This document shows positions 6,959-57,997 of a stretch of DNA of 60,215 nucleotides, one piece after another (position 1 is the first letter of the stretch; each line of letters begins with the position of its first letter). Under the pieces are notes generated by a model. It was not told the DNA's origin. It saw nothing but the letters and a program-made list of their open reading frames with translations, and ran no database searches. A program made the position numbers and the translations under genes. Origin of the DNA: Bacteroidaceae bacterium (GTDB lineage: Bacteria > Bacteroidota > Bacteroidia > Bacteroidales > Bacteroidaceae); assembly GCA_017535725.1 (NCBI GenBank), contig JAFXTO010000057.1, positions 1 to 60,215 of the forward strand, given 5' to 3'.

Positions 6959-7504
6959 ATGGCAAAGATTTATGATTTCAAGGCTCTCACGAGCAAAGGA
7001 AAGGAACTGGATTTCGCTCAGTTCCAAGGCAAGGTGCTGCTCATCGTCAACACCGCCAGCAAATGTGGATTCACCCCTCAGTTCGCAGGACTGGAAGAGT
7101 TGAACCAGAAATACAAGGACCGTGGATTAGTCATCATCGGCTTCCCCTGCAACCAATTCAAGGAGCAGGATCCAGGCACCGACGGACAGATTGAGGAGTT
7201 CTGCCAGCTGAACTACGGCGTGACATTCCAGATTATGAAGAAGACCGACGTGAACGGCCCCGCTGCAGAACCCGTCTTCGAGTATCTGAAGACGCAGGCA
7301 CCCACCGAGGAGTATAACGGACTGAAGGCCAAGGCTACCAAGGCGCTCCTGAAGACGCTCAGTAAGAGTGTGCAGAAAGACAGCGATATCCTTTGGAACT
7401 TCACCAAGTTCCTAATCTCAAAGGACGGAGAGACCATCAAGCGCTACGCTCCTACCACAGAGCCGAAGGACTTTGAGAATGATATTGAAGCGATGTTGGC
7501 TTAA
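6959..7504 (+). CDS. Glutathione peroxidase family thiol peroxidase
   Basis: 181 residues, the usual length. Family motifs are complete: VNTASKCGFTPQF with the peroxidatic cysteine at about residue 37, GFPCNQFKEQDPG with glutamine and the second cysteine, and WNFTKFLISKDG near the end. The active site is cysteine, not selenocysteine, as in bacterial thioredoxin-dependent members. It would reduce hydrogen peroxide or lipid peroxides in the cytoplasm. The insert around residues 118-140 is slightly longer than in typical GPx proteins. Confidence 0.92.
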   Translation: MAKIYDFKALTSKGKELDFAQFQGKVLLIVNTASKCGFTPQFAGLEELNQKYKDRGLVIIGFPCNQFKEQDPGTDGQIEEFCQLNYGVTFQIMKKTDVNGPAAEPVFEYLKTQAPTEEYNGLKAKATKALLKTLSKSVQKDSDILWNFTKFLISKDGETIKRYAPTTEPKDFENDIEAMLA

Positions 7505-7525
7505 CCCGACTTTGACTCGATTTTG

Positions 7526-7576
7526 ACCCAACTTTGACTCTTTGACTCTTGGAAGTGTAAAGTGTCAAAGTTGGGT
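7526..7576 (+). terminator. Inverted repeat downstream of the peroxidase gene
   Basis: Perfect 13-bp arms ACCCAACTTTGAC (7526-7538) and GTCAAAGTTGGGT (7564-7576). There is no T-run, so termination is possible but not certain. The left side also contains TTTGACTC words. Confidence 0.4.
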
Positions 7577-7632
7577 TATGTAAACATTTCACTCCCTTTT
7601 AGCGTGCGTTTTCTGCAGAAATAAACAGGCTA

Positions 7633-7943
7633 CGTAACCAGAAGAATTTTCGGAAAAGACCTAATACCTCATAAAAATTCAAATAACTTGTTTATAATAA
7701 GCAAATTAAACAAAAACAAGACCTCATAAAGACCTCATAGAACCTCATAAGACCTCATGGCCATCGAACGTCTTATGTGCAGTTAATAATCAGTTTATGT
7801 TTTGGAAGGCTCAGTATGAGGTCTTATGAGGTTCTATGAGGTCTTCATGAGGTCTCAAATCATTATAACAAGTTTACACATAGATGTTTACGAAGATTTT
7901 TATGAGGTCTTAGGTCTTTTGCGAAAATTCTTCTGGTTCTACG
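7633..7943. repeat. 311-bp imperfect long hairpin
   Basis: The left arm (from 7633) and the reverse complement of the right arm (to 7943) match almost base for base over ACCAGAAGAATTTTCG, AAAAGACCT and ACCTCATAAAAAT. They match again further in, where both arms carry repeated GACCTCATA words. The central loop is roughly 7762-7810. No open frame crosses it. It lies between convergent genes, right beside the 22-bp array at 7953. Confidence 0.8.
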
Positions 7944-7952
7944 AAACATGGA

Positions 7953-8150
7953 TGGACGTAATCACAAACACGTAAGGACGTAACTTCAAACACGTAAGGA
8001 CGTAACTTCAAACACGTATGGACGTAACTTCAAACACGTAAGGACGTAATTGCATACGCTCAAGAAGCTGGCTGCATACGCTTATGAAGCTGGCTGCATA
8101 GGCCAATGCACGTAGCTGCATAGGCGGATGCACGTAGTTGCATCGCAAAG
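7953..8150. repeat. 22-bp-period array A (nine units)
   Basis: Nine contiguous units of exactly 22 bp. The first five are built on GGACGTAA-CTTCAAA-CACGTA; the rest drift stepwise to GCACGTAG-CTGCATAGGC. Neighbouring units differ at a few positions only, but the two ends of the array are quite different. The same period and word parts occur at 32480, 46191 and 59410. It lies between the convergent peroxidase and MetH-activation genes. Confidence 0.85.
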
Positions 8151-8174
8151 AGCCTAAGGGATGATAAGGGTGGG

Positions 8175-9101
8175 TTACGTGTTTGCGGCGAGGAAGGGAC
8201 GGAGTTCTTCGGGGGTGCGCCCTTTGCGGCGGGCGTAGTCGAGGAGCTGGGCTTCGTCGATGTGACCTACGTTGAAATAGCGTGCCTCGGGTAGGGAAAG
8301 CATGAGTCCACTGACGGCGGCATGGGGCTGCATGGCTCCGTTTTCGGTCAGCCGAATGCCGATGGATGCGAAGTCGATAAGACGGTCGAGGTCGAAATTC
8401 AGGCTTTGGTCGGGCAGACAAGGATAGCCCACAGCGGGACGGATGCCCTGGAAATGACCGGCGAGGAGTTCGTTGATGGAGAGGTTCTCGTCGGATGCAT
8501 AGCCCCAATAGTGCCGACGGATTGCCTGATGGGCTCGCTCCGTGGCAGCCTCAGCCAGACGGTCGGCCAAAGTCTGACAGAGCAGATGCTTGTAGTCATC
8601 AGCCTGCTCGGTTCCTGCCTCGAACAGATGCTCTATGGCTTCGTCAGCTGCTGTGCAGAAGACACCGATGCGATCCTTCCGTCCCTCTGGATTCTCGGGA
8701 CGGATGAAATCGGATAGACAGAGAAAAGGGGCGGACTGCTGGCGGAGGAAAGAAAGTTGTGTCATTCGTGATTCATCATCTGCCACACGTGATTCGTCGT
8801 AAATGATGATATCTTCTCCCTTGCTGTTGCAATCGAAGAGTCCGAAGCGGACGTGTACCCTGTAGCCTTGGCTATCCAGGAAAAAGAGCATTCGCGTTAC
8901 CTCCTTGAAGAGTTGCATCGCCTCTGCTGCCCTACCCCGCTCGTCCTCCGGAAAGCGTGCAAGCCACATCGCACGGCAGGAGTCGCAACCATGAATCTGG
9001 GCGATGCCTGCAAAACGTGCAGGGAATCCCCAGGCGTGGAAAAAATAGGACCAGCTGATGTAAGGTTCTATCTCATGGATGGAGTAATGCAAAGAGAGCA
9101 T
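8175..9101 (-). CDS. Stand-alone MetH reactivation (AdoMet-binding) domain protein
   Basis: 308 residues. The C-terminal half matches the activation domain of cobalamin-dependent methionine synthase: GIRPAVGYPCLPDQS at about 215, and the AdoMet-binding region with AVSGLMLSLPEARYFNVG and DYARRKG near the end. In MetH this domain binds S-adenosylmethionine and remethylates oxidised cob(II)alamin. Here it is a separate protein, implying a split methionine synthase whose catalytic part is encoded elsewhere. It is the last gene of the leftward operon; 8-bp word repeats fill the spacer to the upstream dihydroorotase. Confidence 0.8.
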   Translation of the reverse strand: MLSLHYSIHEIEPYISWSYFFHAWGFPARFAGIAQIHGCDSCRAMWLARFPEDERGRAAEAMQLFKEVTRMLFFLDSQGYRVHVRFGLFDCNSKGEDIIIYDESRVADDESRMTQLSFLRQQSAPFLCLSDFIRPENPEGRKDRIGVFCTAADEAIEHLFEAGTEQADDYKHLLCQTLADRLAEAATERAHQAIRRHYWGYASDENLSINELLAGHFQGIRPAVGYPCLPDQSLNFDLDRLIDFASIGIRLTENGAMQPHAAVSGLMLSLPEARYFNVGHIDEAQLLDYARRKGRTPEELRPFLAANT

Positions 9102-9103: not shown

Positions 9104-9285
9104 AAAGTTGAAAAATTGAAATGTTGAAACGTTGAAAGGATGACAAGAGGATGAAGAAATGAGGCGGCCTAGTTGTTGTCGTAATAACGTAATAACGGGA
9201 TAACGAAATAACGGAATAACGAAGGCCGCTGAAAAGAATGAAAAATAAAAAGAATGAAAAATGAAAAATAAAAGGATGAAAGAGG
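9104..9285. repeat. 8-bp word arrays in the spacer between two operon genes
   Basis: Three successive word families: AANNTTGA (9104-9142), CGNNATAA (9176-9222) and A/G-rich GAATGAAAAATAAAAA words (about 9236-9285). They fill nearly all of the spacer between the dihydroorotase stop (9299) and the MetH-activation start (9101). No promoter signature is seen in it. Confidence 0.75.
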
Positions 9286-30917: not shown

Positions 30918-32408
30918 ATGCGCTTAGACGACGACCTGAAATATTTCGAATCGCCTGAATTCAAGAAGATTCTGGAATCATACGAATCAGCTATGGCGGA
31001 GGGTTCGTCCATCTACATGGATGCCGACGAACTCACCGACTTGGCTGAGTACTACACCATGGTCGTTCACGACGATAATCAGGCCACAGATGCCATCAAC
31101 CTGGCCCTGCAGCTACATCCCGATGCGGTAGACCCTCAGATTTTCCTCGCACGCAACGCAATGCTTAAGGAAGACCACAAGCGCGCCCTCAAGCTCTGCA
31201 ACGCCATCCCCGACCAGTCGCACCGCGAGGTCTTCTTCCTGCGAGCCGAACTGATGGTGCGCGAAGGCAAGAACAAGCGCGCCCGCTCATACCTCCTTGA
31301 ATGCGCCGAACAGGTGACCGAAGACCTCGACTACTTCCTCTTCGACTCCGCCTACATCTTCATCGACTACAACGACTACCTCTCTGCTCGTTCCTTTGCC
31401 GAGGAACTTGAACGGATGGCACCTAATTGGTTCAAGACGTGGGAACTATGGGCAGACGTCTCGCTTGGAATGGAGGACAACAACAAGGCGCTGGAATGCA
31501 TCGAGAAGATGCTGGATAAAGACCCCTTCTACATCAGCGCCTGGAACTGGCGGACGGAAGCTTACTGCGGCCTCTACGATTACACGCGTGCCTTCGAGAG
31601 CACGGAGTTTGCGTTGGCCGTAGACCCCAACAACGAACGCGCGCTGGAACTCAAGGCCTGGGTGCTCATGCGGCAGGAGAACTTCGAGCAAGCCCATGAG
31701 TACTACACCCAGCTGCAGACCCTCAACCCTGACTCCGAAATCCATTGCCTCTACGACTCCTACTGCCTCTTCGACCTCCAGCGCATCGATGACTCCCTGC
31801 TGCTCATCCAGCGTGCTGAGGAACTCGCCGAGGGACTCAGCCCCGAACAGGCAGCCATCTATGAACACCACGCCCACATCCTCTCCGAGCAAGGCCACAT
31901 CAAGGAGGCACTCCACTACATAGACCTCGCAGAACAGGCCTACGTGCAGGACGATGACTACGCCAACCTGGATGAAACCAAGAAGCAAGACTTCGACTAT
32001 TACCGAGCCCGCATTCACGCCGATAATGGAGATAGCGAAGCTGCCATCAACTTCATCGAACGGATAGCACAGAAGGGACGAGAGCCCCTCCCCACTGTTA
32101 TCTTCCAAGGGGCAGAAATCCTCTTCGAGGCAGGCGACTATGCCACCGCACTGGACATCTTCCAGATACTCAACCAGTACGAGGTCGAACAGCAGCTACT
32201 CGTGCGCACCTACCCTTACCTCGCCGCCTGCTACCACGAATGCGACGACCACGAACGCTGCCTGGACAATATCCGCCTGGCCATCGACAACAACTCACCC
32301 CAAATGTTCGAAATCCTTGGCTACCTCTTTGCAGACGGCGTGCAACCTGCTGAATACTACGACTATTACCACTACCGCATTTACGGCTGCTGGCCACAAC
32401 ACCAATGA
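30918..32408 (+). CDS. Tetratricopeptide-repeat protein
   Basis: 496 residues, strongly acidic, no signal peptide. Helical pairs of about 34 residues run through most of the length (for example ALECIEKMLDKDPFYISAWNWRTEAY, then YTRAFESTEFALAVDPNNERALELKAWVLM). Such solenoids bind other proteins; the partner is unknown. The C-terminus is rich in tyrosine and histidine (YYDYYHYRIYGCW). The gene follows glnS by 128 bases without a standard promoter. Confidence 0.85.
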   Translation: MRLDDDLKYFESPEFKKILESYESAMAEGSSIYMDADELTDLAEYYTMVVHDDNQATDAINLALQLHPDAVDPQIFLARNAMLKEDHKRALKLCNAIPDQSHREVFFLRAELMVREGKNKRARSYLLECAEQVTEDLDYFLFDSAYIFIDYNDYLSARSFAEELERMAPNWFKTWELWADVSLGMEDNNKALECIEKMLDKDPFYISAWNWRTEAYCGLYDYTRAFESTEFALAVDPNNERALELKAWVLMRQENFEQAHEYYTQLQTLNPDSEIHCLYDSYCLFDLQRIDDSLLLIQRAEELAEGLSPEQAAIYEHHAHILSEQGHIKEALHYIDLAEQAYVQDDDYANLDETKKQDFDYYRARIHADNGDSEAAINFIERIAQKGREPLPTVIFQGAEILFEAGDYATALDIFQILNQYEVEQQLLVRTYPYLAACYHECDDHERCLDNIRLAIDNNSPQMFEILGYLFADGVQPAEYYDYYHYRIYGCWPQHQ

Positions 32409-32479: not shown

Positions 32480-32567
32480 CACATAAACCTACGTGCATCC
32501 GCCAATACACGTAGGTTCATGTGCTTATGCAGGTAGGTTCATGAGCTTATGCACGTAGCTTCAGTTT
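32480..32567. repeat. 22-bp-period array B (four units)
   Basis: Four 22-bp units in the spacer between the convergent TPR and synthetase genes. The array changes orientation inside: AACCTACGTGCAT (32486-32498) faces ATACACGTAGGTT (32505-32517) across six bases. The resulting hairpin has one mismatch and could terminate both genes. Confidence 0.8.
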
Positions 32568-32597
32568 CATATATTCATTTATTCGAACTTATGATGA

Positions 32598-35500
32598 TCA
32601 TACCGTAAAGTAATCGAAGCCAACGATCGTATCGACAAAGCGATGGACGTAGTCGGCGGCAGTGGGCGGCCACTGGAAGCCAAGACGATAGAGCACCTGT
32701 GTGGTATAATCGTTGGTCGATTCTATCCAGCGAGTCTTGTGGGCGCCACTCATATTGTAAGCCATCAACGGGCGCAACAGGGTGACCAAATCCGGATTTT
32801 CCATCATCTTATCCAACGCCTGTTGGAACTCCTCATTTTCTACACGTTTCAGCGTAATGCCTGCCTTGGCAAAGCCTATCAGGATATCGCTAAGGAACTG
32901 TCGGTGGGTGTTACATGGATGGAACACCATGCACTCCTTCGGCGTCTGGGAGAGTTGCATAATGGCATGAGCCACCTCATCGATGGGTGAAAACTCGAAA
33001 CGCTGGTCGAGCGCTTCGTAAGGCACCATTCCGATAGCCACATAGGCACGCAGCGTAGCCAGGAAGTTGTTGGTATTGAAGTTGATTTGGAACTCACCAT
33101 CTTTCTGACGTGCCGACAGGTTGCCCACACGCATAATCTTCGCATTCAACCCATGGTGAGCTATGGCATCGAGCACCAACTCCTCGGCCTTGAACTTCGA
33201 ATAGACATATTTGTTGGCATCGATGTTCTGGCCGATGTAGAGGTCCTGCTCCGACAGCTTGACCTCTGGGCCAGGCACATTGTCCACGCTGATGCCGGCA
33301 ATACTGTTCGTCGAAATATGAATGAGCTTTGACCCCGTACGCAGACAGAAACTAATCAGATGGCGCACCGACTCGATATTTACCATCTCGATGTCGTTGC
33401 CAGCAGAAAAGTGCTTCACGTTAGCGACACAGTTGATAACGGTCAAATTGTCCGATTGTGAAATGGTTAAATTGTCAAGCGCATCGGGCTTCGTTACCTC
33501 AGCAACAAATGCAGTCACACGCTCTTCGAAATGACTGAAAGCCTCTGTGCGACCAAAGTAATAGAAGTACAGGGTTTTAATACGGCTCATTGCCTCGTCG
33601 TTGCCCTTTGCACGGATAGGACAGAGGATCTTGCCGTGATAATTGGTCAGCAATTCATTGAGTATATGAATTCCGAGATAACCTGTGGCTCCCGTCAGCA
33701 ACACATCGCCAATAGCTTGCCGCTGTCCGTTGCGGAAGGCGGAGAGGGTGTTGGCGCATAAGAGGGCGTTGAGCGGTGCATAGTGTTCTGCTTCGGGGGA
33801 GGAAATGCTAGTCTTACTAGTCTCACTAGAAGGTCTAGAAGAACTAGAAGTACTAGAAGAACTAGAGGAACTAGATTCTACGAAGGCAGCGAGGGCCCGT
33901 GGTGTCTTCAGACTGAATAGGTCGTTGAAGACAATCTGCACACCGTGTTTGCTGGCCTCGACGATGACCTTAATGGCATTGATACTGGTGCCGCCAATCT
34001 CGAAGAAGTTGTCGGTAGCGCCCACTTCCTTGATTTTCAAGATATCAGAGAAGATACTGCAGAAGAGTTCTTCCTTCTCGCCTTTTGGAGCCTCGTATTC
34101 GGTGGCACGTTTCATCTCTGGAGCGGGCAATGCCTTACGATTAATCTTGCCGTTAGGGGTCATTGGCATACTGTCCATTTGCATATAGGCATCGGGCACC
34201 ATGTAATCAGCCAGCGAGGAGGCGGCGAGAGCCTGACGGATGGCTTCATCGTCGATGCTAAGGCCATCGACCACCGTGTAGTAGAGCACTAAGTGCTCGT
34301 TACCCATTACCTTGCGCACCTCTGCAGCAGCTTGACGGACGCCCTCGATGTTCAAGGCTTTGCTCTCAATCTCGCCGAGCTCGATACGGAAGCCGCGCAG
34401 CTTCACCTGGGTATCGATACGTCCCATATACTCTATCTGACCATCTTCGTTCCAACGACAAAGGTCGCCTGTATGGTACATACGAACAGGACGTCCCCAA
34501 CGGTCTTCCTTGACAAACGGACAGTCAACGAATGACTTCGCTGTACGCTCGGGTAGTCGCCAATAGCCGCGACCGACCTGCACACCGGCAAAGCACAACT
34601 CACCAGCCACACCCTGCGGAACAAGGTTTCCAGCGGAGTCCACGATGAAGTTCCAGTTGTTGGCAACACTCTGGCCGATAGGAATATTCTCTACACGACG
34701 ACCTGGGGCAATGCTATAATAAGAGGTATCATCAGTACACTCCGTTGGACCATAGACATTGATAATTTCGATATGGTCGCTATAAACGCCATCCATCTTC
34801 TCGCCGCCACCCGTGGTAAAACGGATGGGCAGGTCGTCGAAGGCGTTGAGCAACAGACAAGTCATCGCTGTCGAATAGCCACCACCGGTAATCTGATGAT
34901 CAAACAGGAATTGACGGATAGCTGCGAGGTCTTTGCGAATTTCTGTAGGCATGATATGGAACGAGCCACCCAGCGTTAGCACAGGATACATGTCCTCAAT
35001 GTGTGCATCGAAGGAGAAGGAGCGATGTCCGCTGATTCTGTCAGCAGAAGTCAACTTCTCCATGTCGATGACAACGGAAATGAAGTTACGCAGGCCTGCC
35101 TGATGAAGCATAGCGCCCTTTGGTTTACCCGTAGAGCCGGAGGTGTAAATCATATAGGCGAGACCGTCGGGAGTTGAGAGGTCGATGGGAGCGGCGATAC
35201 CATCGCCACACACAGAACAAATTTCCGCCATGAAATCATCGATGAAGAAGGTCTTGGCGGCTGCGGTGCTGAAGTCGCCTTCTGCCTGCTTGGCGGCAAG
35301 GACGTCGTGGGTGGTAATCAACACCTTTGACTCCGAGTTCTCGAGCATGTAGCTCAGACGCTCGTTTGGATACTCGAAATCGAGTGGAGTATAGGCGGCA
35401 CCAGCCTTGTGGATAGACAGTACTGCCAACGGGAATTCCTTGAAACGGTCGAGCATGACACATACGAAGTCATTGGGCTGCACGCCGAAGTCAATCAACT

Positions 35501-38500
35501 GACGGGCCAAAGCATTTGAATAGCGATCCATCTCGCCGTAAGTCAGTTGACTGTCCCGATCCACCACAGCAGGTGCATCAGGTGTGCGCTGAGCCTGCTC
35601 GGTGAAGAGGTTGGCAAAGGTCTTACTCAGATCAACGTCGATTTCCTTGCCCGTACCTATCATAATAATTCGCTCGGCCTCCTCGTCGCTGACGATGCTG
35701 ATGGTGTTGATGGCAGCATCAGGCTTTGCCATCATTCGCTCAACGGTCACCTTCACAGCGTCGGCCAGACTCTGCATCAGACGGGCGGAATATTTACCAT
35801 TGTCGTATTCCACACAAATGCTGGGCTGGCCCTGCACTTCGCTGATAAAGAACGTGATGGGGAACTTGGGCACTTGGAGTTCCATATTATCCAATTCCAA
35901 CGGAGTGCCCTGACAGATGTATTGGCTAATCATTCCCAATTGATAAACAAACTGTATCTCTGCCGTCAATCCGTAGTCAGCGGCAATCTGTGCAAAGGGA
36001 TAATTCTCGTGACTCAGGGTCTCGTCGAAGTTTTCGCTCACCTCCTGCAAGAACTCCTTCACCGTCTGTTTTCCAATCGTTGCACTCAGGGCCAGCGTAT
36101 TCACAAACATACCCACGGTGTTGCGGATATTCAGGTTGGAGCGACCACTTGAGACGGTGGTGATGCATACCTGCTCGCTATTGGCAAAGCGGGACAATGA
36201 ATAATAGATGGCCGAAAGAATCAGATGGGCTGGGGTGATGTTGTTGCTGCGGCAGAAGGTTTCAACAGCCTCAAGGTCAAGGGCGGAGATTGCTTTGCCG
36301 ATAGTTCCCTTGACAGGATTCGGCAGGTCGGGACGAACTTCCGTAGCGGTCTCGACAGCAGAAAGGCGCTCTTTGAAGAAATCCTTGGCAGCGAGATAGT
36401 CCTCACCTCCCTCTGAGGCCTTTTCGGCTGTCACGTAGGCTGCATAGCTTTGTTCTTCTTCCTCAATGGGGAAGCCATTGAGCACACTGCACAATTGTTG
36501 CAGGAAGATGTCAACAGAGCCACCGTCGAACACCAGGTGATGCACATCCATCAACAGATAGGTCTGCTGTTCGGTTGTCACTATCTCAAAACGATAGAGC
36601 GGACCCGTACTGAGGTCGAAAGGCTTCACGAAGTCCTGTTTATACGGCTTCAGTTCGTCCTCGTTCATCTGTTTTACGGGTACTTCTACGACCTGCTCCA
36701 AATCAACGGTCTGCACGATGCCCTCATCGCCATTGCCGAAGTGAACGGTCAACTGTGGATGCATCTTGACCAGTTTCTTTACGGCCTCGGCAAGTGCTGT
36801 TGTATTTATATCTTTCTGGAACTGAATGCAATATGGTACATTGTACAGCGTTGAGGTGGGATTCTTCAGGCAGTCGAAATAGACGCCAGTCTGGGCGTAA
36901 GAAAGTGGAAGCCTCACCCCCGCCCCCTCTCCCAAAGAGAGGGGAGTAGATACTTCTTTCACCTCTTTTCCGTCTGAGGAGTGACCACTCCCCTCGGCCT
37001 CTGGAGAGGGGCTGGGGGTGAGGCTTCTCCAAATCTCATTCTCAATGCTTTGCAGCGTGCCATTCTTTACCAATGACTTCGCATTAAGGGTAACTCCGTA
37101 ACGCTTGTTCACCTGGATAGCCAACTTGATAGCAGAGATAGAGGTCAGGCCGGCAACTCCCAGAACGGTGGTAATGCCGAAATCGGTGTTATTAATGATG
37201 CCGGCAATCATCTCGTGCAACTCCTGCTCCAAGAGGTTGAGTGGGGCCTGCTCCGTTTGTTGCGTTGGCAACGCAACAGACTTAACGGGTTTCGGCAGTG
37301 CCTTCTTGTTCACCTTCTGGTTCTGGTTCAATGGAATCTTCTCTATCTGCATCGTCACGGCAGGCACCATATAAGGCGGTTTCTGGTCGAGGATAAAGTT
37401 GTTCATGGCCTCAACGTCCACCTGCTCATCGCTGACGATGTAAGCAGCAATGAACTTGCCGCCGTTCTCATCATCGAAGGCCTGCACGGTAGCGTCCTTG
37501 ATTCCAGGGAACTCGCGAATGACAGCCTCCACCTCCTTCAGTTCGATGCGGAAACCGCGAATCTTTACCTGTCCGTCCCTGCGACCCACAAACTGGATGT
37601 CGCCCGATGGCAGGTAGCGCACTATATCGCCGGTGCGATAGGCACGGGAATATTTGCTAGAAGCACTAGTCGAACTAGAAGGACTAGTCGTACTAGAAGC
37701 ACTAGTCAAACTAGAATTACTAGAAGTACTAGAAGTACAAGTGACGAATGGATTCTGAATAAATACCTCTGCGTTTTTGTCGGGTCGGTTCAGGTAGCCG
37801 AGTGCCACTTGCGGTCCAGCTGCCAACAATTCACCCATTGCTCCCACAGGCAGACGGTGTCCCTGCGGATCAACGACATAAAGCCACACATTGTCCATAG
37901 GCTTACCGATGGGAACGTCCGTTTCTTTCTTTTTTATGGGATATATGGTGATAAGGATGGTGGCTTCTGTCGGGCCATAGCCGTTGTGCAGCTGATAGCC
38001 CTGAGGCGGGGCGATACTGGCCAGCTTCTCGCCAGCCACAGAGAGATGTATCAAGGAGTGGTTCTCGATGTTCGATGCAAACTGATAGCCCACCTGTGTC
38101 GTCATGAACGTATGAGTGATGTGTTCGCGCTCCAGGTATTCATTGAGCGAAACGAGGTCCAGGCGCAGTTCTTCGGGGATGATGAATACGGTGGCACCGC
38201 CCGTCAGTGGCGGATAGATTCCCTCTTGATGTACATCGAAACCATAGCTGGCATATTCAGCCACGTTGTGCTCAGGCTTCAGGTCGTAGTATTTCCAATA
38301 CCAGTTGCAGTAGCAGACCAAGTTACCATGCGTCAGCTGGCAGCCTTTGGGAACACCTGTCGAACCGCTGGTATAGAGCAGGATGAAACGGTCGGAGGGG
38401 GACAATTGAGAATTGATAATTGATAATTGAGAATTGACCTCTGCCGTGAGGGCTGGCAGCGACAACAGTTCCTTCGTCAGCAGTACATCCCCCTGATATT

Positions 38501-40133
38501 CATCCACCAACTCACGCAGCGACTCGTCGGCAATGAGCAACTTGGCAGCAGCATCCTGCACCATGAAGTTCAGACGCTCCTTCGGGTAGCTGGGATCCAG
38601 CGGCTGATAGGCACAGCCCGCTTTCAGGATTCCGAGCGAGGCTATAGCCATCCACTCGCAGCGGGGAATGATGATAGAAACGGCATCGCCCACGCCCAGT
38701 CCTTTCGAGATGAGATAGGCTGCTATGCGGTCACTGATGTCATCAACTTGTGCATAGGTGTAACGATGATCCTTGAAAACGACGGCCTCGGCAGCGGGTG
38801 TGGCCTTCGCCTGACGACGGAACAGCGATACCACCGTCTGCGTGTCGTCGTACGGACGGTCTGTGTCGTTGAACGAGTCGAGCAACGCCATCTGTGCGGC
38901 GGTGGTCATGCTGATATCGCACAGTCTTTCCTGCGTAAGGAAACCCTCTAAGACCGCCTCGTAGCTCTCCATGAACTGACTCATCAGTGCCTCGCTGTAT
39001 TCGTTGCCATTATACTCTGCTTCCAACACGAATCGTCCTTCCTTGATAACGACTTTCAGATAGAGCGACACCTCGCGGCTGTTGTTGCAAAGAAGAATAT
39101 ACTTCATGGGCTTGCCACAGAACGGATTGTTTTCCAGGGTGTTGCCGTGCCAGATAAACAGCGTGGCGGGTTGCAGTCCCAAGTCATTGACGACGTCACT
39201 ATAATTGTACGACCCGTGCTGACGGCAACCTTTCATCTGCTCCTCTCCGGCCTTGATGAAGTCGAGCACATGGGTGTCGGCATCGAACTTGGCATACACA
39301 GGTACCGTTTTCACCAGCATGCCCACCATACGGCTGCTGCGCTTGTCGGCACGTCCATTGTGTACCGTGTTGAACAGTACCTGCTGCTCGTTGTTGAATT
39401 TGGCCAACAGATAAGCGTAGGCTGCTGTAAAGACGGAGCTTCGGAAGACACCGTTCGTCTTGCAGAAAGCATCCACCTGAGCTTTGTCCACAGCCATTGT
39501 CCGTGTCAGAAGGGCATCCACAAACTGCTTGTCGTCGCGGTCGGGCAGCAGCGGAGAGTAGCAGTCGCCGCAATCGAAGTTTTCCGCATACCATTTCTTG
39601 TCCTCCTCAAACGCTGGTGTCCGGCGCTGCTCCTCTTCTGCGATAGCCAGCTGGGCCATCGTCAGCTGCTCCGCCTCCAAGGGCTCACCGTTGTAGGCTT
39701 TCTCGATGTCTGCCAGCATAATGCCCTGCGAGCCACCGTCGAACAATGTATGATGAACATCCTGGAAATAATAGAAGTGTTCTTTGTCGCGCAGCAGGCG
39801 GATGCGGAACAGGCGGTCGCCCACGATGTTGAACGGCTGAACCATCGTCTGCTTGACAGCTTCGATGTCGTCAACATGTTCTACCTGCAAGGAGAATGTC
39901 TCCGTGTCGTCAATCGTCTGCACGGGGTCGCCCTGCTCTGTCAGTTCGATGCGCGTAAACAGCGTCGGGTGGGCAGCCACTACGGTCTCAACAGCCCGCC
40001 GGAGCCGCTCTTCGTCCAGACTGCCATCGAGGATATAGAAACAAGGTACGTTATAACAAGGCTCTCCCGAGTGGTTCACACTTTCCACGTAGAGTCCGTA
40101 TTGCGTTTTAGTTAATGGTGCGGAAGTTTTCAT
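32598..40133 (-). CDS. Two-module nonribosomal peptide synthetase with terminal reductase (C-A-T-C-A-T-R)
   Basis: 2511 residues. C1 (1-430, active site HHTLFDG at about 126), A1 (445-970, LLYTSGSTG at about 588), T1 (serine in GLTSISAIKL, about 1001), C2 (1080-1480, HHLVFDG at about 1197), A2 (1540-2010, MIYTSGSTG at about 1664), T2 (GGTSINAIKV, about 2049) and a reductase (from 2143, LLTGATGYLG for NADPH, YSKFK for catalysis). Catalytic motifs look intact, so it should release an N-capped or free dipeptide as an aldehyde. A C domain at the start suggests an acylated or otherwise loaded first residue. A2 pocket positions read roughly D-A-E-G-T-G-V-D-D, acidic enough to suggest a basic residue; A1 is not assignable. 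Five in-frame repeat inserts sit in linkers or loops. No phosphopantetheinyl transferase lies in the window. Last gene of the operon. Confidence 0.93.
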   Translation of the reverse strand: MKTSAPLTKTQYGLYVESVNHSGEPCYNVPCFYILDGSLDEERLRRAVETVVAAHPTLFTRIELTEQGDPVQTIDDTETFSLQVEHVDDIEAVKQTMVQPFNIVGDRLFRIRLLRDKEHFYYFQDVHHTLFDGGSQGIMLADIEKAYNGEPLEAEQLTMAQLAIAEEEQRRTPAFEEDKKWYAENFDCGDCYSPLLPDRDDKQFVDALLTRTMAVDKAQVDAFCKTNGVFRSSVFTAAYAYLLAKFNNEQQVLFNTVHNGRADKRSSRMVGMLVKTVPVYAKFDADTHVLDFIKAGEEQMKGCRQHGSYNYSDVVNDLGLQPATLFIWHGNTLENNPFCGKPMKYILLCNNSREVSLYLKVVIKEGRFVLEAEYNGNEYSEALMSQFMESYEAVLEGFLTQERLCDISMTTAAQMALLDSFNDTDRPYDDTQTVVSLFRRQAKATPAAEAVVFKDHRYTYAQVDDISDRIAAYLISKGLGVGDAVSIIIPRCEWMAIASLGILKAGCAYQPLDPSYPKERLNFMVQDAAAKLLIADESLRELVDEYQGDVLLTKELLSLPALTAEVNSQLSIINSQLSPSDRFILLYTSGSTGVPKGCQLTHGNLVCYCNWYWKYYDLKPEHNVAEYASYGFDVHQEGIYPPLTGGATVFIIPEELRLDLVSLNEYLEREHITHTFMTTQVGYQFASNIENHSLIHLSVAGEKLASIAPPQGYQLHNGYGPTEATILITIYPIKKKETDVPIGKPMDNVWLYVVDPQGHRLPVGAMGELLAAGPQVALGYLNRPDKNAEVFIQNPFVTCTSSTSSNSSLTSASSTTSPSSSTSASSKYSRAYRTGDIVRYLPSGDIQFVGRRDGQVKIRGFRIELKEVEAVIREFPGIKDATVQAFDDENGGKFIAAYIVSDEQVDVEAMNNFILDQKPPYMVPAVTMQIEKIPLNQNQKVNKKALPKPVKSVALPTQQTEQAPLNLLEQELHEMIAGIINNTDFGITTVLGVAGLTSISAIKLAIQVNKRYGVTLNAKSLVKNGTLQSIENEIWRSLTPSPSPEAEGSGHSSDGKEVKEVSTPLSLGEGAGVRLPLSYAQTGVYFDCLKNPTSTLYNVPYCIQFQKDINTTALAEAVKKLVKMHPQLTVHFGNGDEGIVQTVDLEQVVEVPVKQMNEDELKPYKQDFVKPFDLSTGPLYRFEIVTTEQQTYLLMDVHHLVFDGGSVDIFLQQLCSVLNGFPIEEEEQSYAAYVTAEKASEGGEDYLAAKDFFKERLSAVETATEVRPDLPNPVKGTIGKAISALDLEAVETFCRSNNITPAHLILSAIYYSLSRFANSEQVCITTVSSGRSNLNIRNTVGMFVNTLALSATIGKQTVKEFLQEVSENFDETLSHENYPFAQIAADYGLTAEIQFVYQLGMISQYICQGTPLELDNMELQVPKFPITFFISEVQGQPSICVEYDNGKYSARLMQSLADAVKVTVERMMAKPDAAINTISIVSDEEAERIIMIGTGKEIDVDLSKTFANLFTEQAQRTPDAPAVVDRDSQLTYGEMDRYSNALARQLIDFGVQPNDFVCVMLDRFKEFPLAVLSIHKAGAAYTPLDFEYPNERLSYMLENSESKVLITTHDVLAAKQAEGDFSTAAAKTFFIDDFMAEICSVCGDGIAAPIDLSTPDGLAYMIYTSGSTGKPKGAMLHQAGLRNFISVVIDMEKLTSADRISGHRSFSFDAHIEDMYPVLTLGGSFHIMPTEIRKDLAAIRQFLFDHQITGGGYSTAMTCLLLNAFDDLPIRFTTGGGEKMDGVYSDHIEIINVYGPTECTDDTSYYSIAPGRRVENIPIGQSVANNWNFIVDSAGNLVPQGVAGELCFAGVQVGRGYWRLPERTAKSFVDCPFVKEDRWGRPVRMYHTGDLCRWNEDGQIEYMGRIDTQVKLRGFRIELGEIESKALNIEGVRQAAAEVRKVMGNEHLVLYYTVVDGLSIDDEAIRQALAASSLADYMVPDAYMQMDSMPMTPNGKINRKALPAPEMKRATEYEAPKGEKEELFCSIFSDILKIKEVGATDNFFEIGGTSINAIKVIVEASKHGVQIVFNDLFSLKTPRALAAFVESSSSSSSSTSSSSRPSSETSKTSISSPEAEHYAPLNALLCANTLSAFRNGQRQAIGDVLLTGATGYLGIHILNELLTNYHGKILCPIRAKGNDEAMSRIKTLYFYYFGRTEAFSHFEERVTAFVAEVTKPDALDNLTISQSDNLTVINCVANVKHFSAGNDIEMVNIESVRHLISFCLRTGSKLIHISTNSIAGISVDNVPGPEVKLSEQDLYIGQNIDANKYVYSKFKAEELVLDAIAHHGLNAKIMRVGNLSARQKDGEFQINFNTNNFLATLRAYVAIGMVPYEALDQRFEFSPIDEVAHAIMQLSQTPKECMVFHPCNTHRQFLSDILIGFAKAGITLKRVENEEFQQALDKMMENPDLVTLLRPLMAYNMSGAHKTRWIESTNDYTTQVLYRLGFQWPPTAADYVHRFVDTIVGFDYFTV
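33790..33875 (-). repeat. 9-bp CTAG word array in the synthetase, T2-R linker
   Basis: Words of nine bases each holding ACTAG or TCTAG (for example AGAACTAGA, AGTACTAGA). They encode the serine/threonine-rich linker between T2 and the reductase at about residues 2088-2115. Confidence 0.8.
36911..37024. repeat. 114-bp inverted-repeat element, in frame inside the synthetase
   Basis: Ends GCCTCACCCCC...and...GGGGGTGAGGC, same family as the element at 1026-1140, but with more diverged arms. 114 bases is 38 codons; it encodes the LTPSPSPEAEG...EGAGVRL linker between T1 and C2 (about residues 1037-1074). Confidence 0.85.
37660..37740 (-). repeat. 9-bp CTAG word array in the A1 domain
   Basis: Nine words of nine bases such as ACTAGAAGC, ACTAGTCGA, ACTAGAAGG. 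They encode about 27 serine/threonine-rich residues before AYRTGDIVRY in A1, where related domains have a short loop. Confidence 0.85.
38402..38440 (-). repeat. 7-bp word array in the A1 domain
   Basis: Five TTGA words spaced by seven bases (AATTGAGAATTGATAA...). It reads VNSQLSIINSQLS on the protein, just before the LLYTSGSTG core motif. Confidence 0.75.
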
Positions 40134-40148: not shown

Positions 40149-40326
40149 ATCTAAAATCTTTAAATCTTTAAATCTTTAAATCTTTCAACTCGTCAACTCG
40201 TCAACTTGTCAACTTGTCAACTCGTCAACTCGTCAACTCATCAACTTGTCAACTCATCAACTCATCAACTTGTCAACTCGTCAACTCGTCAACTCATCAA
40301 CTTGTCAACTCGTCAACTTTTCAACT
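40149..40326. repeat. 8-bp word arrays between the synthetase and MATE genes
   Basis: About four AAATCTTT words followed by about 17 copies of TCAACTNN (NN is CG, TG or CA). They fill the whole spacer and run into the last codons of the MATE gene, whose TGA stop is made by a word. No promoter signature is present. Confidence 0.9.
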
Positions 40327-41632
40327 CAAACCTCACGTGTGTCATCTTGTGAAGCGCGAAGATGGCAACCATCTCGATGATATAGGCAACAAGCCAACCA
40401 TACCAGATCCACTCCTTCATATATGTCGAAAACAGCCATAGCACGGGGATGACCGTCAGCGACAGGGCGAAGGAAATAAAGAGAGCCATGTGGTGATAGT
40501 TGTAGAGCTTATAGACAATCATGATGGTGTAGATGTAGCAGAAGGGGATGAGACAGACGGCAAAGACACGCAACGCCTTGCAGCTCTCAATAATCATGTC
40601 GCTCTCGTTGGTACCAAAGAGCATCACAATGCTTTCGGGCCATATCCACACATAGATACAGGTGATGACCATTGCCACGGTGATGAAGTTAAACGACTTG
40701 CGCAGCACCAGCGTGAAAGCCTCGTTGTCGCCTCTGCCCACCTGGATGGAGCCCAGCGACTGGATGGTGCGGCATACGCCTCCCAAGAACAGGTTGTAAA
40801 TCAGCAACAGGTTCATACAGAGGGCAAAAGCATAAATACCCGTACGTCCCAGCGACGACAAGATGATTTTGTTTGACGCAAACATCAGCAACGTCAGACA
40901 GATGGAGGCAATGGCCAGCGGTGCGCCCTGCGAGATGATAGCGCCAAACACTGGTTTCTGGCGTCCACAAGTCAGTCGCAGATGATTCTCCTTCGAAAGG
41001 AAATGGATGCCCATCAAGGCAATGCCCACCACATGACCAATAACAGCAGCCCAGGCGCTACCTTCGATGCCCCAGCCGAAGTACTTGATGAATACCACGT
41101 CGAGCAGCAGGTGAACAAGATTATCCACCAAAATGGATACAGACACCAAACGAGGACTGCCATCAACGCTGACCATCGTATCAGCACCCCACATCAACAA
41201 ATAGACCGGAGCGCCTATCAGCGTCACTCTGAGGTATTCGTAAGTAGGCTGGTAAAGTTGCTCGTTGTCACACAGCAGCCGTGTCACGACATCAGGCGTC
41301 AGAACACCACATGCCGTCAACAGGAGACCAGTCAGCAAACAGGCCAACATCGAAACAATGAAGATGTACGATGCCCGCCGATTGTCCTTTTTGCCTAATT
41401 CCATACCTACCAACATACCAGCGCCTGTAGCCAGCAGCATGTTGACGGTGTACATAAACTGAAGCAATGGCAGCGACAGGTTGATAGCACTCACCGAGTC
41501 TTCGTCAATCAGGTTGCCCACGATCATCGCATCAACCACATTTCCCAAGCAGGCAGACAATCCAATGAGGATCGATGCCCACAAGAAACGCCAGAACTGG
41601 ACGTTAAACACTTTTTTTTCTTCTGTTTTCAT
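40313..41632 (-). CDS. MATE family efflux transporter
   Basis: 439 residues, 12 hydrophobic helices, typical MATE length. DAMIVGNLIDEDSVSAINLSLPL near the start and GSAWAAVIGHVVGIALMGIHFL in the middle fit the DinF/NorM-type superfamily. It exports small organic molecules in exchange for sodium or protons. Its place directly before the synthetase suggests export of the peptide product or self-protection. The last codons and stop fall inside the TCAACTNN array. Confidence 0.9.
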   Translation of the reverse strand: MKTEEKKVFNVQFWRFLWASILIGLSACLGNVVDAMIVGNLIDEDSVSAINLSLPLLQFMYTVNMLLATGAGMLVGMELGKKDNRRASYIFIVSMLACLLTGLLLTACGVLTPDVVTRLLCDNEQLYQPTYEYLRVTLIGAPVYLLMWGADTMVSVDGSPRLVSVSILVDNLVHLLLDVVFIKYFGWGIEGSAWAAVIGHVVGIALMGIHFLSKENHLRLTCGRQKPVFGAIISQGAPLAIASICLTLLMFASNKIILSSLGRTGIYAFALCMNLLLIYNLFLGGVCRTIQSLGSIQVGRGDNEAFTLVLRKSFNFITVAMVITCIYVWIWPESIVMLFGTNESDMIIESCKALRVFAVCLIPFCYIYTIMIVYKLYNYHHMALFISFALSLTVIPVLWLFSTYMKEWIWYGWLVAYIIEMVAIFALHKMTHVRFELKS

Positions 41633-41688
41633 CTTGTTTCAAGGTGGATTAGTTAGTTATCAGATGATTGTTGTTATCAATTCGGAAT

Positions 41689-41897
41689 CGAGAAATCGGT
41701 TAATCGAGGAATCGAAATGTCGTTTAATCGTTTATTCGAGGAATCGTTTAATCGTTAAAACGAGATAACGAAATAACGTTATAACGAGATAACGAAATAA
41801 CGTTATAACGAGATAACGAAATAACGAAAAATCCTTAAATCCTAAAATCCTTAATTCCTAAAATCTTTAAATCTTTAAATCCTTAAATCGTAAAATC
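41689..41897. repeat. 8-bp word arrays between the MATE and porin genes
   Basis: Three families in a row: words with AATCG (41689-41757), CGNNATAA (41758-41829) and NTTAAATC/CTAAAATC (41830-41897). The last begins directly at the porin's TGA stop. No TTTGC promoter is present. Confidence 0.9.
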
Positions 41898-43560: not shown

Positions 43561-43917
43561 TATTTATTTCTTTATTTCTTAATTTCTTAATTCTTTTTTC
43601 GGCCTCGTTATTACGTTTTTCCGTTTTTCCGTTATCACGTTATTACGTTATATCGTTATTTCGTTATTTCGACAACTTATCGGCCACCCCATTTCAACTA
43701 GTCAACTTCTCAACTCGTCAACTTCTCAACTCGTCAACTTCTCAACTTGTCAACTCATCAACTCGTCAACTTCTCAACTCGTCAACTTCTCAACTCGTCA
43801 ACTTCTCAACTCGTCAACTCGTCAACTTCTCAACTTCTCAACTCGTCAACTTCTCAACTCGTCAACTCGTCAACTTCTCAACTTCTCAACTCGTCAACTT
43901 CTCAACTTGTCAACTTT
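43561..43917. repeat. 8-bp word arrays between the STAS and phosphatase genes
   Basis: TTTATTTC-type words (43561-43595), CGTTATNN-type words (43606-43672) and about 27 TCAACTNN words (43695-43917). The last family reaches into the phosphatase gene and makes its stop codon. The 350-base spacer contains nothing else recognisable. Confidence 0.9.
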
Positions 43918-46190: not shown

Positions 46191-46312
46191 GATGAACCTA
46201 TGTGCATGAGCCGATGAACCCTGATTCATGAGCCAATGAATCAAGCTCCATGAGCCGATGAACGTAGATTCATGAGGAGATGGAGGTAGGTTCACGAGGC
46301 GATGGAGGGGGA
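46191..46312. repeat. 22-bp-period array C (five and a half units)
   Basis: Five complete 22-bp units starting GATGAACC/GATGAACG or AATGAATC and ending CATGAGCC or a variant, followed by a partial unit. Related to arrays A, B and D by period and by the words ACGTAG, TTCATGAG and GATG. Confidence 0.85.
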
Positions 46313-46390: not shown

Positions 46391-46415
46391 ACTCAAATTG
46401 AGACACAAAGAGCCA

Positions 46416-46560
46416 AAATTCACTATACCGAAACAGAAATATACAAAGGGCTCAAATCCACTGTACCAAACTGAAATATACAAAGGGCTCAAATTCACTA
46501 TACCGAAACAGAAATATACAAAGGGCTCAAATTCACTGTACCAAACTGAAATAACTCAAA
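46416..46560 (+). repeat. Alternating tandem repeat in the 5' leader of the giant gene
   Basis: Two slightly different units alternate (about 38 and 37 bases, A-B-A-B). Each has TTCACT(A/G)TACC, then AAACAGAAATA or AAACTGAAATA, and ends ACAAAGGGCTC. The last copy is cut short 13 bases before the start codon. The leader would be transcribed from the promoter at 46382. Confidence 0.85.
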
Positions 46561-46572: not shown

Positions 46573-49500
46573 ATGAACCAAATGAGAACGACTCGCGTTG
46601 GCTGGATGGTTTGGCTGTTGCTCCTCCAGCTCGCCCTGTTGCTGCCTAACGATGCTCGTGCTGCAGGTTACGGAACGTTTGAATCGCCCAATCAGGCGTT
46701 TTCCTGGTACTCGAAAGGGCAAGGATGTATGCATCTCACGCTCCAAAACAGCGTGCATATCGACGACACCTATTGGCGGAACCTGAAAGATGCCACGTTC
46801 TACCTGAAGGACAAGGACGGCAACAAGACTGAAATTTTCTTCATCTGCGAGCAGAACACCAACAACGGCTATGGCGTCGCGCTGATAGAGAACCTGCTGT
46901 CTGACAAGTCACATGCCTTCCTGACGAACGACCGCACGGAAACGAAGTATTACATCAGCGGCAAGAGCAATGGAATAAAGTACAATTTCAAGAACAACGG
47001 CGGCTTTGAACGTCCCGACGGTGCCATAGAAATCGACTGGTACTTCCCCGTGGATTTCGTGGGCAAGAGCTTTACCTTCGGTGTCAAAGGACGGCTGTGG
47101 TTAGGCGGCGAAAATAAATACGCTGAATACGAGCAGGACAACATCGGCACGATGGAATTTGAAGACATCAACTTCGAGACCTACGATGCGGTGCCGGGCA
47201 CCGATGCAGGCGATGAAGCCACGGTGCGCATTCCATTCTACTGCGAACGACCCATCAACTACGTTGATGCCACCTATACCGATCGTGACGGCCAAGTGCA
47301 GACTTTACCCTGGGTGACGATGGAGAAGAACAGCTATTTCGGTTTCATATCTCTGCCTGCCACGGAGAAGGTGACGAACCTGACCATCACAGCCAACCTG
47401 AAATTGGCTTCGTGGACCGACAACCCCACCAAGTTCTCCACTTGGCCCAAACAGCTGGACGGCGACATTCAGAAGACCATTGCCACCCTGCCCATCATCC
47501 ACAATCCGCGGTTCCTGAAGGCTACCGTGGACAGCGTGGGTGCTGTCAGGCTGGAGTGGAAGGTGATGGACCGCGACGCGGAAGACTTGCTGGAGGGCGA
47601 CGTCTTCCAGGTGCAACGGTCGCTGACGGGCAAGACAGAGGATTTCACGAACCTGGAATCTGATTTGCTCTATGACAGCGAGACGGAGGAATACCTCTTC
47701 CGCGACTCCACGCTGATGTCCTCCCTCTCGGCGGAACAGATAGACAAAACGCTGGGCATTCCGCTGGTGCGCTACCGCGTGTTCCGCGCCACGACGGGCG
47801 AGCTCTGGGGGCTGGAGAAGAACCCCACGGTGAGCTACGTACAGCCACAGTTTGCCACCTTGGCACTCCTGCAGCCGAAGGATGCCACCGTGATGTGGAG
47901 CAACCAGGAGGAGCGCAAGGTGAAGGTGGCGTGGCAGTGGATGGAAAACGATGACTCTCACAATTATGTTTGGGACGAACGTGCCGTGATGAAAGTGAAG
48001 GTGATGATGTACAACAGGAACCAGAAGCTGGTGGACAGCCTCGTGACCACGCTGACCAATGAGCAGTTCAGGAAGCGGGAAGTGGAGCTGACACTGAGCC
48101 GCTCGTGCGTGACCTACGAGATGCGCCTCATCGTGGATGGCAGCAAGTCACCCATCGGACAGGGCAAGGGTATCATCTTTGCGACCATCGGCTCCAAGGC
48201 GGATTTCGAGAAATATGCCAACAATATCTACGAAAGAAAGTCGAACACGGCACCTCATGCCATAATGACCGCCGACGTAACCATCAACAGCAACGTTGCC
48301 AATTACTGGCTCGGCTATAATGAGGACAAGTATTACACGGGCAACTTCAACGGCAATGGCCACACGCTGACCATCAGCTATCCCGATTTAGGTCTGCGGA
48401 ATGACGAATACGTGGCGCCCGTTCGTTTTGCAGGAAGCGGAGCCGTGTTCTGCAACCTCACCACTGCGGGCACCCTGAAAGTGGAGAAGCGTTTTGCCTC
48501 CGGCTTGGTGGGCAAGATAGCCACGGGCCAACTGCACATTGAGAACTGTATCTCGAAGATGGTTTTCCAGCCACAATTCAGCGGCGACGCCTCCATTGGC
48601 GGGTTCGTCGCACTCGTGGATTTGAATGACGGTACCGACAACAGCAAGAACCTGCACATCACCCACAGTCTGTTCAGCGGAAGTTTTATACTCAGTTATA
48701 CTACCACCAACTGTGGCGGTTTTGTAGGTTGGCGGCGCAAGAACACCTTTGCCATGTTATCCAATTGCCGCTTTGCACCTGTGAAGTTGCCATTAAGACC
48801 TTACGGCTGGCAGAACTTCATGCGCGACCTCAGCCAAGACCCGCAGTTCGGCATCCTGGAGGACTGCACACACAGTGTTGGCATTGCCGGGTCGACGCAA
48901 GGCAAGAAGACCGACTTGGCACCCGACAACTGGTGCTGGAAGGATGGATCCCCCCTTGTGAAGCCGGTGGCGTTCTCAACGCCCGTATCCGGCAGCGTGA
49001 CGGAACTGACGCTGCCCGAGGATAAGTTCTATTTTGAGAATATCGGTCATATCAACAAGAACTCCTTAGAGACGGATACGCAGCAGAGCTCTGTGGTACT
49101 GACGTGGAAGAACGTGGACGACAACCCCGTGGACTACTACGAGGTGTGGCGCCGCGACGTGAAGACGCCCAACGACTCCGTGTGCATTGCCACCCAGCTG
49201 ATAGAAATGCAGTACGAGGACAAGACCACCTCGCCGGTTCACACTTACGAATACAGCGTCCGCGGCGTGAACGACTGCGAGGGTCTGAAGTACGAAGCCA
49301 CCAAGTGGGTCACCGGCCACTGCGTACAGACGGGACGTGTCTCGGGCTACGTACGCTTCCCCGACGGCACGGGAATCCCCAACGTGACGGTCATCATCAG
49401 CGACGGTACCTCGACGGTGGAAGTGGTGACGGACGAGAGCGGCTACTTCATGAAAGACGAGCTGCCCTACTGGAACAACGGCGGCGAGAGCGCCTACGAC

Positions 49501-56811: not shown

Positions 56812-57600
56812 ATGACTATGAAAACATTAAAAATCATGCTGTGGATGGCAACCCTCACCTTGGTGTGGGGGTGCTCATCCTCTGATGACGATTCCAACAG
56901 CCAATCCACTTTCACCACCTCCGCCAAGCCTCTGTGGGCCATCGACTGGACGTGGAACGACCCCGCCCCCAACTGGCAAGAACCGCCTGCCACCCAATAT
57001 GAATGCAGTATGAACATACTCGTAGAACTGGGAATAGAGTTCCTGCCCTACTCCACCGACGACGACCAGATGGCCATATTCATAGACGGAACGTGCCGAA
57101 GTGTCAGCAAACCCAACGTCTATCCCGGTGCCACTGTGGTGTTCCTGCTCCACATCAAGGGAACCAGCCAGGAGGCAGGACACGAGATGGAACTGCACTA
57201 CTATAGTGCCGGTGCCAAGCAACTCTTTGTGGATGGGGACATGCCACCATTCACACCCAACAACCTCATGGACGAGTCTTTCCAGCTCATATTTACGCCC
57301 GAAGGGAAAAGTTCCAAGTTCCCCTTGTTCACAGTTCTGACCGTCAACCTGCCCGAAACCACACCCTTCGACATCACCAGCGACGACCTCATGGCAATCT
57401 TCGTGGGCGACGAGTGCCGAGGACTCTGCTGGAGAGACGAATATGATTTATACCCCAGCTGGAGGGGCTGCATCCAAAGGCGGCAGTCAGAAGAGACAGC
57501 CACCGTCCGCTACTACAGCGCCGACAAGGGTGGCATCTACACCTTCACTCCCCCCTTCAAACTCAATGACAACCTCCAAGAAATCAATGTCAAATTCTAA
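56812..57600 (+). CDS. Lipoprotein with two domains like the C-terminal domain of the giant protein
   Basis: 262 residues. Lipoprotein signal (LTLVWGCSSS). Two related segments (about 80-150 and 195-255), each built as DDQMAIFIDGTCRS or DDLMAIFVGDECRG followed by strands. The same pattern, DIVGVFDAMGRCMG, occurs at about 2980 of the preceding giant protein. It starts 6 bases after that gene's stop, so the two are co-transcribed and may associate on the outer membrane. Starts at 56812 and 56818 are both possible. Confidence 0.75.
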   Translation: MTMKTLKIMLWMATLTLVWGCSSSDDDSNSQSTFTTSAKPLWAIDWTWNDPAPNWQEPPATQYECSMNILVELGIEFLPYSTDDDQMAIFIDGTCRSVSKPNVYPGATVVFLLHIKGTSQEAGHEMELHYYSAGAKQLFVDGDMPPFTPNNLMDESFQLIFTPEGKSSKFPLFTVLTVNLPETTPFDITSDDLMAIFVGDECRGLCWRDEYDLYPSWRGCIQRRQSEETATVRYYSADKGGIYTFTPPFKLNDNLQEINVKF

Positions 57601-57612
57601 TTAATAATTAAT

Positions 57613-57786
57613 CATCCACCCCCTCCTCTGGCCCCGCTAAGAGGTTAATGTCAAATTAAATTCCAATTTAACCATCCACCCCTCCTCTGGCCCCGCTAAG
57701 AGGTTAATGCCAAATTAAATTCCAATTTAACCATCCACCCCTCCTCTGGCCCCGCTAAGAGGTTAATGTCAAATTCTAATTAATAA
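57613..57786. repeat. 60-bp tandem repeat, first block (three units)
   Basis: Units begin at 57613, 57673 and 57732 with CATCCACCCC and contain CCTCTGGCCCCGCTAAGAGG, which can form a CCTCT/AGAGG hairpin, then TTAATGTCAAATT. The block continues after the inserted structured element, at 57998. Confidence 0.85.
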
Positions 57787-57965: not shown

Positions 57966-57997
57966 AAGACTAATATCAAATTAAATTCCAATTTAAC

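Follow-up and report, generated by a model that had tools for sequence, protein, structure and literature searches.

The 22-bp-period arrays described here are, at a probability of roughly 55%, genome-wide cis elements: lattices for putative dimeric DNA-binding proteins arranged on one face of the DNA. The arrays keep one period, have dyad symmetry in general, conserve their boxes and not their spacers between two sister species, avoid divergent gaps and fill the same gap with different words in related species. The window that we analysed is the entire contig C65 (60,215 bp) of a genome assembly, G000, of 2.9 Mb in 72 contigs with an estimated completeness of 76%. All four window arrays (A–D) were recovered at period 22, as the original prediction had stated, both by Tandem Repeats Finder and by lag scanning; A has about 8.6 units, B four, C five and D four. 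The word stock that the prediction had listed (ACGTAG, TTCATG and TGCAT) was found to consist of pieces of a box that B, C and D have in common with A's second half.

Array A (7954–8143, minus strand, delimited by the repeat finder and the lag scan) changes its word midway and keeps its register: the first half (7954–8055) belongs to a second type of word (minus-strand form TTACGTGTTTGAAGTTACGTCC) at period 22, and the second half (8056–8143, minus strand) carries four boxes of the form ATGCA-N6-TKCAT, the last of which is degenerate. The array ends 31 bp short of the stop codon of a gene on the minus strand (8175–9101) with a B12-dependent methionine synthase activation domain (PF02965), which is convergent with a glutathione peroxidase gene (6959–7504, plus strand, PF00255). 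Just upstream of the array, short AAGACCTCATA rows (7718–7758) stand face to face with reverse-complement rows (7815–7855). Array B (32483–32570, plus strand) has four boxes at a 22-bp step between the stops, at 32408 and 32598, of a TPR protein gene (30918–32408, plus strand) and a convergent gene (32598–40133, minus strand) for a 2511-aa non-ribosomal peptide synthetase, in which adenylation, condensation and carrier domains are each present in two stretches, along with a reductase-like end domain. Array C (46192–46301, plus strand), with five boxes at a 22-bp step, occupies the gap of two divergent genes (45662 and 46573). The second of these is a 3410-aa open reading frame (46573–56805) with Laminin_G_3 and CarboxypepD_reg domains, and a repeat of about 75 bp lies ahead of it at 46405–46553. 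Array D (59401–59488, minus strand) has four boxes at a 22-bp step right behind a short called open reading frame (59206–59394), close to the contig end. Nearby, two blocks of 58–59-bp repeats (57586–57775 and 57971–58137) adjoin a fimbrillin-like gene (58280–59200, PF13149). No tRNA or tmRNA was found in the window.

These four arrays were confirmed as members of a genome-wide 22-bp family. A lag scan of 414 kb of G000 (the window, contigs C33 and C10, and parts of C67) found 20 arrays at period 22, four at 21, one at 20 and none at 19, 23, 25 or 26. Five 3-mer-block shuffles gave no array at 19–23, 25 or 26 and one stricter shuffle none at 7–79, so that the chance similarity named as a possible refutation did not apply. 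Two or three of the 20 arrays (C33 93744, C10 90172 and C67b 22066) were low-complexity or AT-rich and had no dyad. Array A as a query gave 41 matches at E≤0.1, some of them overlapping, on 22 contigs of its own genome. The predicted sequence drift was also seen: in arrays of at least five units, unit identity was 0.76 at lag 1 and had dropped to 0.52 by lag 7. The remaining common periods in G000 fell into two groups: 8 with its multiples, and periods divisible by three (such as 18, 15 and 27), which resemble repeats in coding sequence. Strict 8-bp arrays, such as TCAACTCG and TTGAAACG, were abundant, with 26 scored in the 414 kb; tandem gaps held 21 of these, and one lay inside a called gene. 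They occur in the window at 40154–40327, 41684–41897, 43605–43916 and 9104–9223, and also in C10 and C67. The stretches of congeners contained chiefly 7-bp arrays in place of the 8-bp ones, and the unit length of these microsatellites may therefore be a species property. In addition, a palindrome, GTTTGACN2-6GTCAAAC, adjoined 22-bp rows of the second word in all four of its copies in the 414-kb sample (G000:C33:125939, C33:146053, C10:43740 and C67:8582); the window has no copy.

To describe the unit, we aligned 56 window-word units from 12 G000 array stretches chosen as being of the window-word type. The consensus, ATG(C/A)A-N6-T(T/G)CAT, revealed a near-palindromic 16-bp box with two inverted half-sites (ATGMA-N6-TKCAT) followed by a 6-bp spacer. 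Information peaked at both half-sites and averaged 1.07 bits over positions 1–16 versus 0.52 over positions 17–22, where the spacer still prefers GC. For the window word, the distance from one half-site centre to the next is 11 bp, both within the box and across the spacer, so that half-site orientation flips with every turn of the helix. Among 96 boxes in the 414 kb (one mismatch allowed), 30 of the 35 successive boxes less than 150 bp apart stepped by exactly 22 bp, while one shuffled control contained 45 boxes and no pair within 150 bp. The arrays have the inverted half-sites at phased spacing expected of an operator array for a dimeric protein. In a set of 121 arrays, in which same-species and sister-pair arrays are not independent and a few coding arrays are included, the best dyad axis beat a 22-column permutation at p<0.05 for 75 arrays and, at the stricter p<0.01, for 45. 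The other 46 showed no significant dyad, among them a sister-pair row that had changed in concert.

Sequence constraint was examined in two sister congeners, G012 and G024, which are about 95% identical across a 10-kb stretch. Neighbouring GGTTAACC boxes less than 200 bp apart were separated by 22, 44 or 66 bp in 31/31 cases in G012 and 17/17 in G024, and rows had exactly four boxes in 16/21 cases in G012 and 12/23 in G024. In the shared stretch, 14 of the 16 G012 arrays aligned with both flanks and had a G024 array in place; for the remaining two, the alignment of one flank was lost. The sisters showed no clean empty site, and one G024 array (64520) had an unalignable left flank and could not be judged. 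In 13 pairs of TTAA-word arrays (two skipped, boxes located in G012), changes affected 27/700 box positions (3.9%), 60/296 spacer positions (20.3%) and 208/1326 flank positions (15.7%), with p=2e-15 for box versus spacer. Inside the box, the two W positions varied in 8/50 each and the remaining twelve positions in 11/600. Since the boxes diverge less than the spacers and flanks, purifying selection appears to act on the box sequence. Indels were not significantly rarer in the arrays (3 per 996 bp) than in the flanks (16 per 2886 bp; p=0.43), and the case for a fixed spacing therefore rests on the 31/31 and 17/17 counts. In one pair (G012:C1:13015-13162 and G024:C4:18092-18234) the units of an array without a significant dyad had changed together, which looks like concerted evolution.

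We then considered how the family extends beyond these genomes. A sample of 361 kb from 20 congeners (at most 20 kb each) contained 12 arrays at period 22, nine runs at 21 and none at 19, 20, 23, 25 or 26. Most of the listed 21-bp runs were 7-bp repeats, and the dyad-like ones were in G013 and G021; palindromic rows with period 21 rather than 22 stand at loci L189 and L065 (G013), one of these at the ruvB gap described below. At a stricter threshold, 8/20 congener stretches had a 22-bp array. The period was kept, and the words were unrelated, mostly palindromic and different between species, with related words in some congeners; each of G000, G012 and G024 has at least two words. The number of 22-bp arrays per 120 kb was 17 in G012, nine in G024, three in G021 and one in G011; the single array of G011, one of G012's and one of G024's lie inside called genes. 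A search of genomes and relatives for the period, as originally proposed, thus found 22 recurring and yet not universal, with similarly built 21-bp arrays in one congener and a better fit to 21 in another. In 251 kb of other families there was no array at 22; when this outgroup set was enlarged to 585 kb by adding 334 kb, half of it from same-family genera, five 22-bp arrays were found, four in same-family genera (G396, G465 and G526) and one in G167. In G465, of the same family and assembled as a single 3.29-Mb contig, a lower threshold gave three arrays in 100 kb. Furthermore, five records from the Bacteroidales MAGs Cf509_bin1, Gsp477_bin149 and Gx485_bin121 had boxes of the AAAAGGGTTAACCCTTTT type arranged in rows with a 22-bp step, some steps in Gx485_bin121 being 21 and 23; a Desulfosarcina match was no row. 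Exact-pattern scans with a word of array A gave no hit in a genome-contig or a viral-contig collection. The G012 word gave none in the viral contigs and 112 stretches in the genome contigs, two MAGs supplying 74 of the 80 listed. Across 393 Bacteroidales genomes, GGTTAACC pairs occurred in seven, with none at 22-bp spacing among the matches listed.

Rows with unrelated words were found at one orthologous gap, upstream of ruvB, whose flanks we take from reading the sequence to be the end of an OmpA-like gene and ruvB. It was picked since G012 has a row there, and the 30 best matches among 138 congener genomes were compared. A 22-bp row was present in 18 of these 30 and a 21-bp row only in one (G013); 11 had none, of which one locus was without upstream DNA and one had only 120 bp of it. 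In G049 period 21 scored above 22, and in G139 other periods likewise scored above it. By eye, the rows use about ten unrelated words, including GTTAAC, CACGTG, CCTATAGG, AAGTACGTGTACTT, ACTAGT, GCGTGC and CTGCAG. Both flanking genes were alignable in G052, G120, G068, G087 and G008. Just past the gene ending at G012 44616, rows were also found in G052, G120 and G087, where the far-side gene was unaligned; eight loci of 5.8–7.4 kb contained no further arrays. Either rows persist at the ruvB gap as their words are replaced, or such gaps are repeatedly invaded. Words common to several species (for example G087, G105 and G129) would suit persistence. Downstream of the ortholog of the gene flanking array A, on the other hand, an array was present in 0/29 other congeners (best 30 of 70 matching genomes, own included; one locus had merely 187 bp downstream), which argues against long persistence.

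The position of the arrays relative to genes bears on a rather unlikely alternative, namely that they work at the RNA level as tandem hairpins near gene 3′ ends, either as bidirectional terminators or in mRNA 3′-end protection. Gene context was computed for periods 22, 8 and 7 with our own gene caller, and control gaps of at least 100 bp were counted without weighting by length. The 55 arrays comprised 15 in convergent gaps, 28 in tandem gaps, five in divergent gaps, three in coding sequence and four at contig edges. Gaps of at least 100 bp numbered 52 convergent, 204 tandem and 79 divergent in total. In G012 and G024, where the stretches are partly orthologous, 42/111 such gaps held a row (convergent 11/25, tandem 26/60, divergent 5/26), and 18/26 tandem rows were closer to the stop codon than to the start codon. 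The arrays are biased away from divergent (promoter) gaps, and this lean towards convergent gaps and stop codons is what RNA elements would show. Their folding energy was also low, with a mean z of −2.71 against shuffles (120 folds of 60 arrays) compared to −1.31 for 80 intergenic controls, and many G012 rows had an A-run on the left (15/21) or a T-run on the right (9/21) with the reverse arrangement in none, an arrangement that a terminator might have, though seen in windows that include the box ends, which favours the pattern. However, the two halves of one unit did not complement each other better than they complemented halves taken from other units (0.404 versus 0.412; 375 column pairs in 75 arrays with dyad p≤0.05). 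Boxes with mixed halves were favoured in two unrelated words, with units not independent in either: 41/60 for the G012 word (Fisher p=0.007) and 25/36 for the G000 word (p=0.014; 21/29 distinct boxes, p=0.022). Half-sites are drawn from a short list and do not follow the identity of their partner. A dyad without covariation and with a preference for mixed halves is more suggestive of dimer half-sites than of stems, and suggests an avoidance of perfect palindromes. Moreover, what is conserved between the sisters is sequence and not pairing, hairpins require no 22-bp step, no terminator-like site was present at 7500–8250, and Rfam at gathering thresholds had no match anywhere in the window.

It is unlikely, too, that the arrays are a mobile minisatellite or MITE, similar to BrickBuilt, with its own word in each lineage and a period fixed by the founding element. 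Dispersed copies, the fall of unit identity with distance, the sister pair in which a row differs in length by 22 bp, the palindrome next to second-word rows and the related words of some congeners would all fit such an element. In contrast, the G012 rows listed mostly have the box motif alone in common, except for one near-duplicate pair. The stability of positions between the sisters, the conservation of boxes and the occupation of one gap by arrays with unrelated words also speak against mobility, as does the lack of a Y1 transposase domain in the array-bearing G012, G024, G052, G087 and G021. We regard as very improbable a neutral tandem repeat produced, irrespective of sequence, by replication or repair machinery that moves in fixed steps of 22 bp. 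Such a machine could explain a period that stays constant over unrelated words within one genus, and the neighbour-graded drift, but it would not be expected to let spacers drift while boxes are conserved, to produce rows of exactly four boxes so often, or to give a general dyad symmetry. The 21-bp arrays of a congener also indicate that two turns of DNA fit better than a one-length replication ruler. The suggestion that the repeat is copied from a template found no support, since the graded drift and the 22-bp sister difference fit ordinary local duplication. The arrays are unlike an ordinary minisatellite insofar as their boxes look selectively constrained. Retrons and template copying were dropped, with no linked genes or template in the data looked at. 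A CRISPR array was rejected because the units drift and are contiguous without CRISPR-length spacers, rather than near-identical repeats with unique spacers.

Several known systems share part of this organization. REP/BIME elements and REPINs are clustered extragenic palindromes, many per genome and outside promoter regions. The present arrays are likewise extragenic palindromes in large number, but they differ in their fixed 22-bp lattice and in words that change between congeners. A REP transposase was not supported as a general driver: Y1_Tnp (PF01797) was found in G000 (two matches) and G120 (three) but not in G012, G024, G052, G087, G011 or G021, that is, in six of the eight genomes searched (72–90% complete), five of the six being array-bearing. 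Plasmid iterons and the partition sites parC/ParR, sopC and tubC are tandem protein-binding boxes on one helix face, some near 22 bp. The arrays resemble them in these respects, with protein binding presumed here, and differ in being dispersed in many copies per genome with near-palindromic boxes. Pfam scans showed no Rep gene either in the scanned neighbours of arrays A, B and C or in the 23 distinct window proteins scanned (34 genes called), and no Par gene in the scanned neighbours of the window arrays. In nucleoid-associated systems (Noc NBS, SlmA SBS, MatP matS and parS), a dimeric protein recognizes palindromic boxes that are dispersed, mostly single and conserved in sequence. Dispersed palindromic boxes with a putative dimeric reader are common to both, whereas here they form phased rows whose words differ between congeners. 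Cyanobacterial STRR are heptamer repeats whose numerous intergenic arrays all have the same fixed unit length. The TAACTGA heptamer repeats of Beggiatoaceae are organized likewise (PMC4679880). Both resemble the present family in that respect, but as far as these accounts go their 7-bp units are non-palindromic and comparable to the 8-bp arrays of G000, not to the 22-bp ones.

Within the literature searched, the nearest published element that we found is BrickBuilt of Porphyromonas gingivalis, described as 23-bp imperfect tandem units in a MITE that is intergenic and dispersed, with 19 sites per genome whose locations are fairly stable between strains (PMC4596501). Bidirectional promoter activity and stem-loops were reported for it, along with a leader, a tail and IS5-like terminal inverted repeats, and 22-nt tandem repeats in strain W83 are mentioned without locations (PMC4596501). 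Judged by that description, BrickBuilt resembles the present arrays in occurring in Bacteroidales and in being intergenic, dispersed and built of imperfect tandem units of similar length. Its unit is 23 bp, whereas ours is 22 bp with none at 23 in the 414 kb. The leader, the tail and the terminal inverted repeats of BrickBuilt as described were not seen in those array contexts and sister alignments that were inspected. The main text of PMC4596501 does not use the term ‘palindrom’, and the arrays here are near-palindromic. Because the period differs and terminal repeats were not seen there, we did not file the arrays as BrickBuilt.

Collectively, these data argue for the binding-lattice reading, and the earlier idea of repeated binding sites on one DNA face was the better supported of the two originally offered: half-sites of the window word recur every 11 bp with alternating orientation, boxes and not spacers are conserved between the sister species, and a spacing of 22 or 21 bp is kept under changing words, all of which makes the boxes candidate sites. 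In the proposed mechanism, homodimeric DNA-binding proteins, or heterodimers of close relatives, would recognize the arrays as double-stranded DNA, with one near-palindromic box of two inverted half-sites in each unit. Dimers would load side by side along one helix face, forming rows of about three to 12 boxes. We infer the putative protein, its dimeric, cooperative binding and its job from the arrays. Since one genome has several words, one protein would be insufficient and more than one specificity is implied. The likeliest job may be that of a boundary close to where genes end, which would stop read-through or the spread of supercoils or anchor the nucleoid, in keeping with a REP/BIME-like distribution. 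The specificity of the protein would shift between species and the sites would follow, while the geometry of 21–22 bp stays.

A broader possibility, which we put forward tentatively, is co-evolution of a protein's specificity with the sites of its chromosome: a family of DNA-binding proteins fixed in geometry, with dimers every 21–22 bp on one face and often in rows of four, whose recognition word changes per species, so that many gene-end sites are rewritten in step as their positions persist. Under the RNA-level reading, the arrays would instead be a gene-end element of an unusual kind in Bacteroidales. Under the protein reading, they would represent an abundant chromosomal binding lattice in gut bacteria and a natural experiment, in which relatives have the same gap and the same geometry with different words, and which would let one ask how a specificity and its many sites change together and what a phased row at a gene end does.
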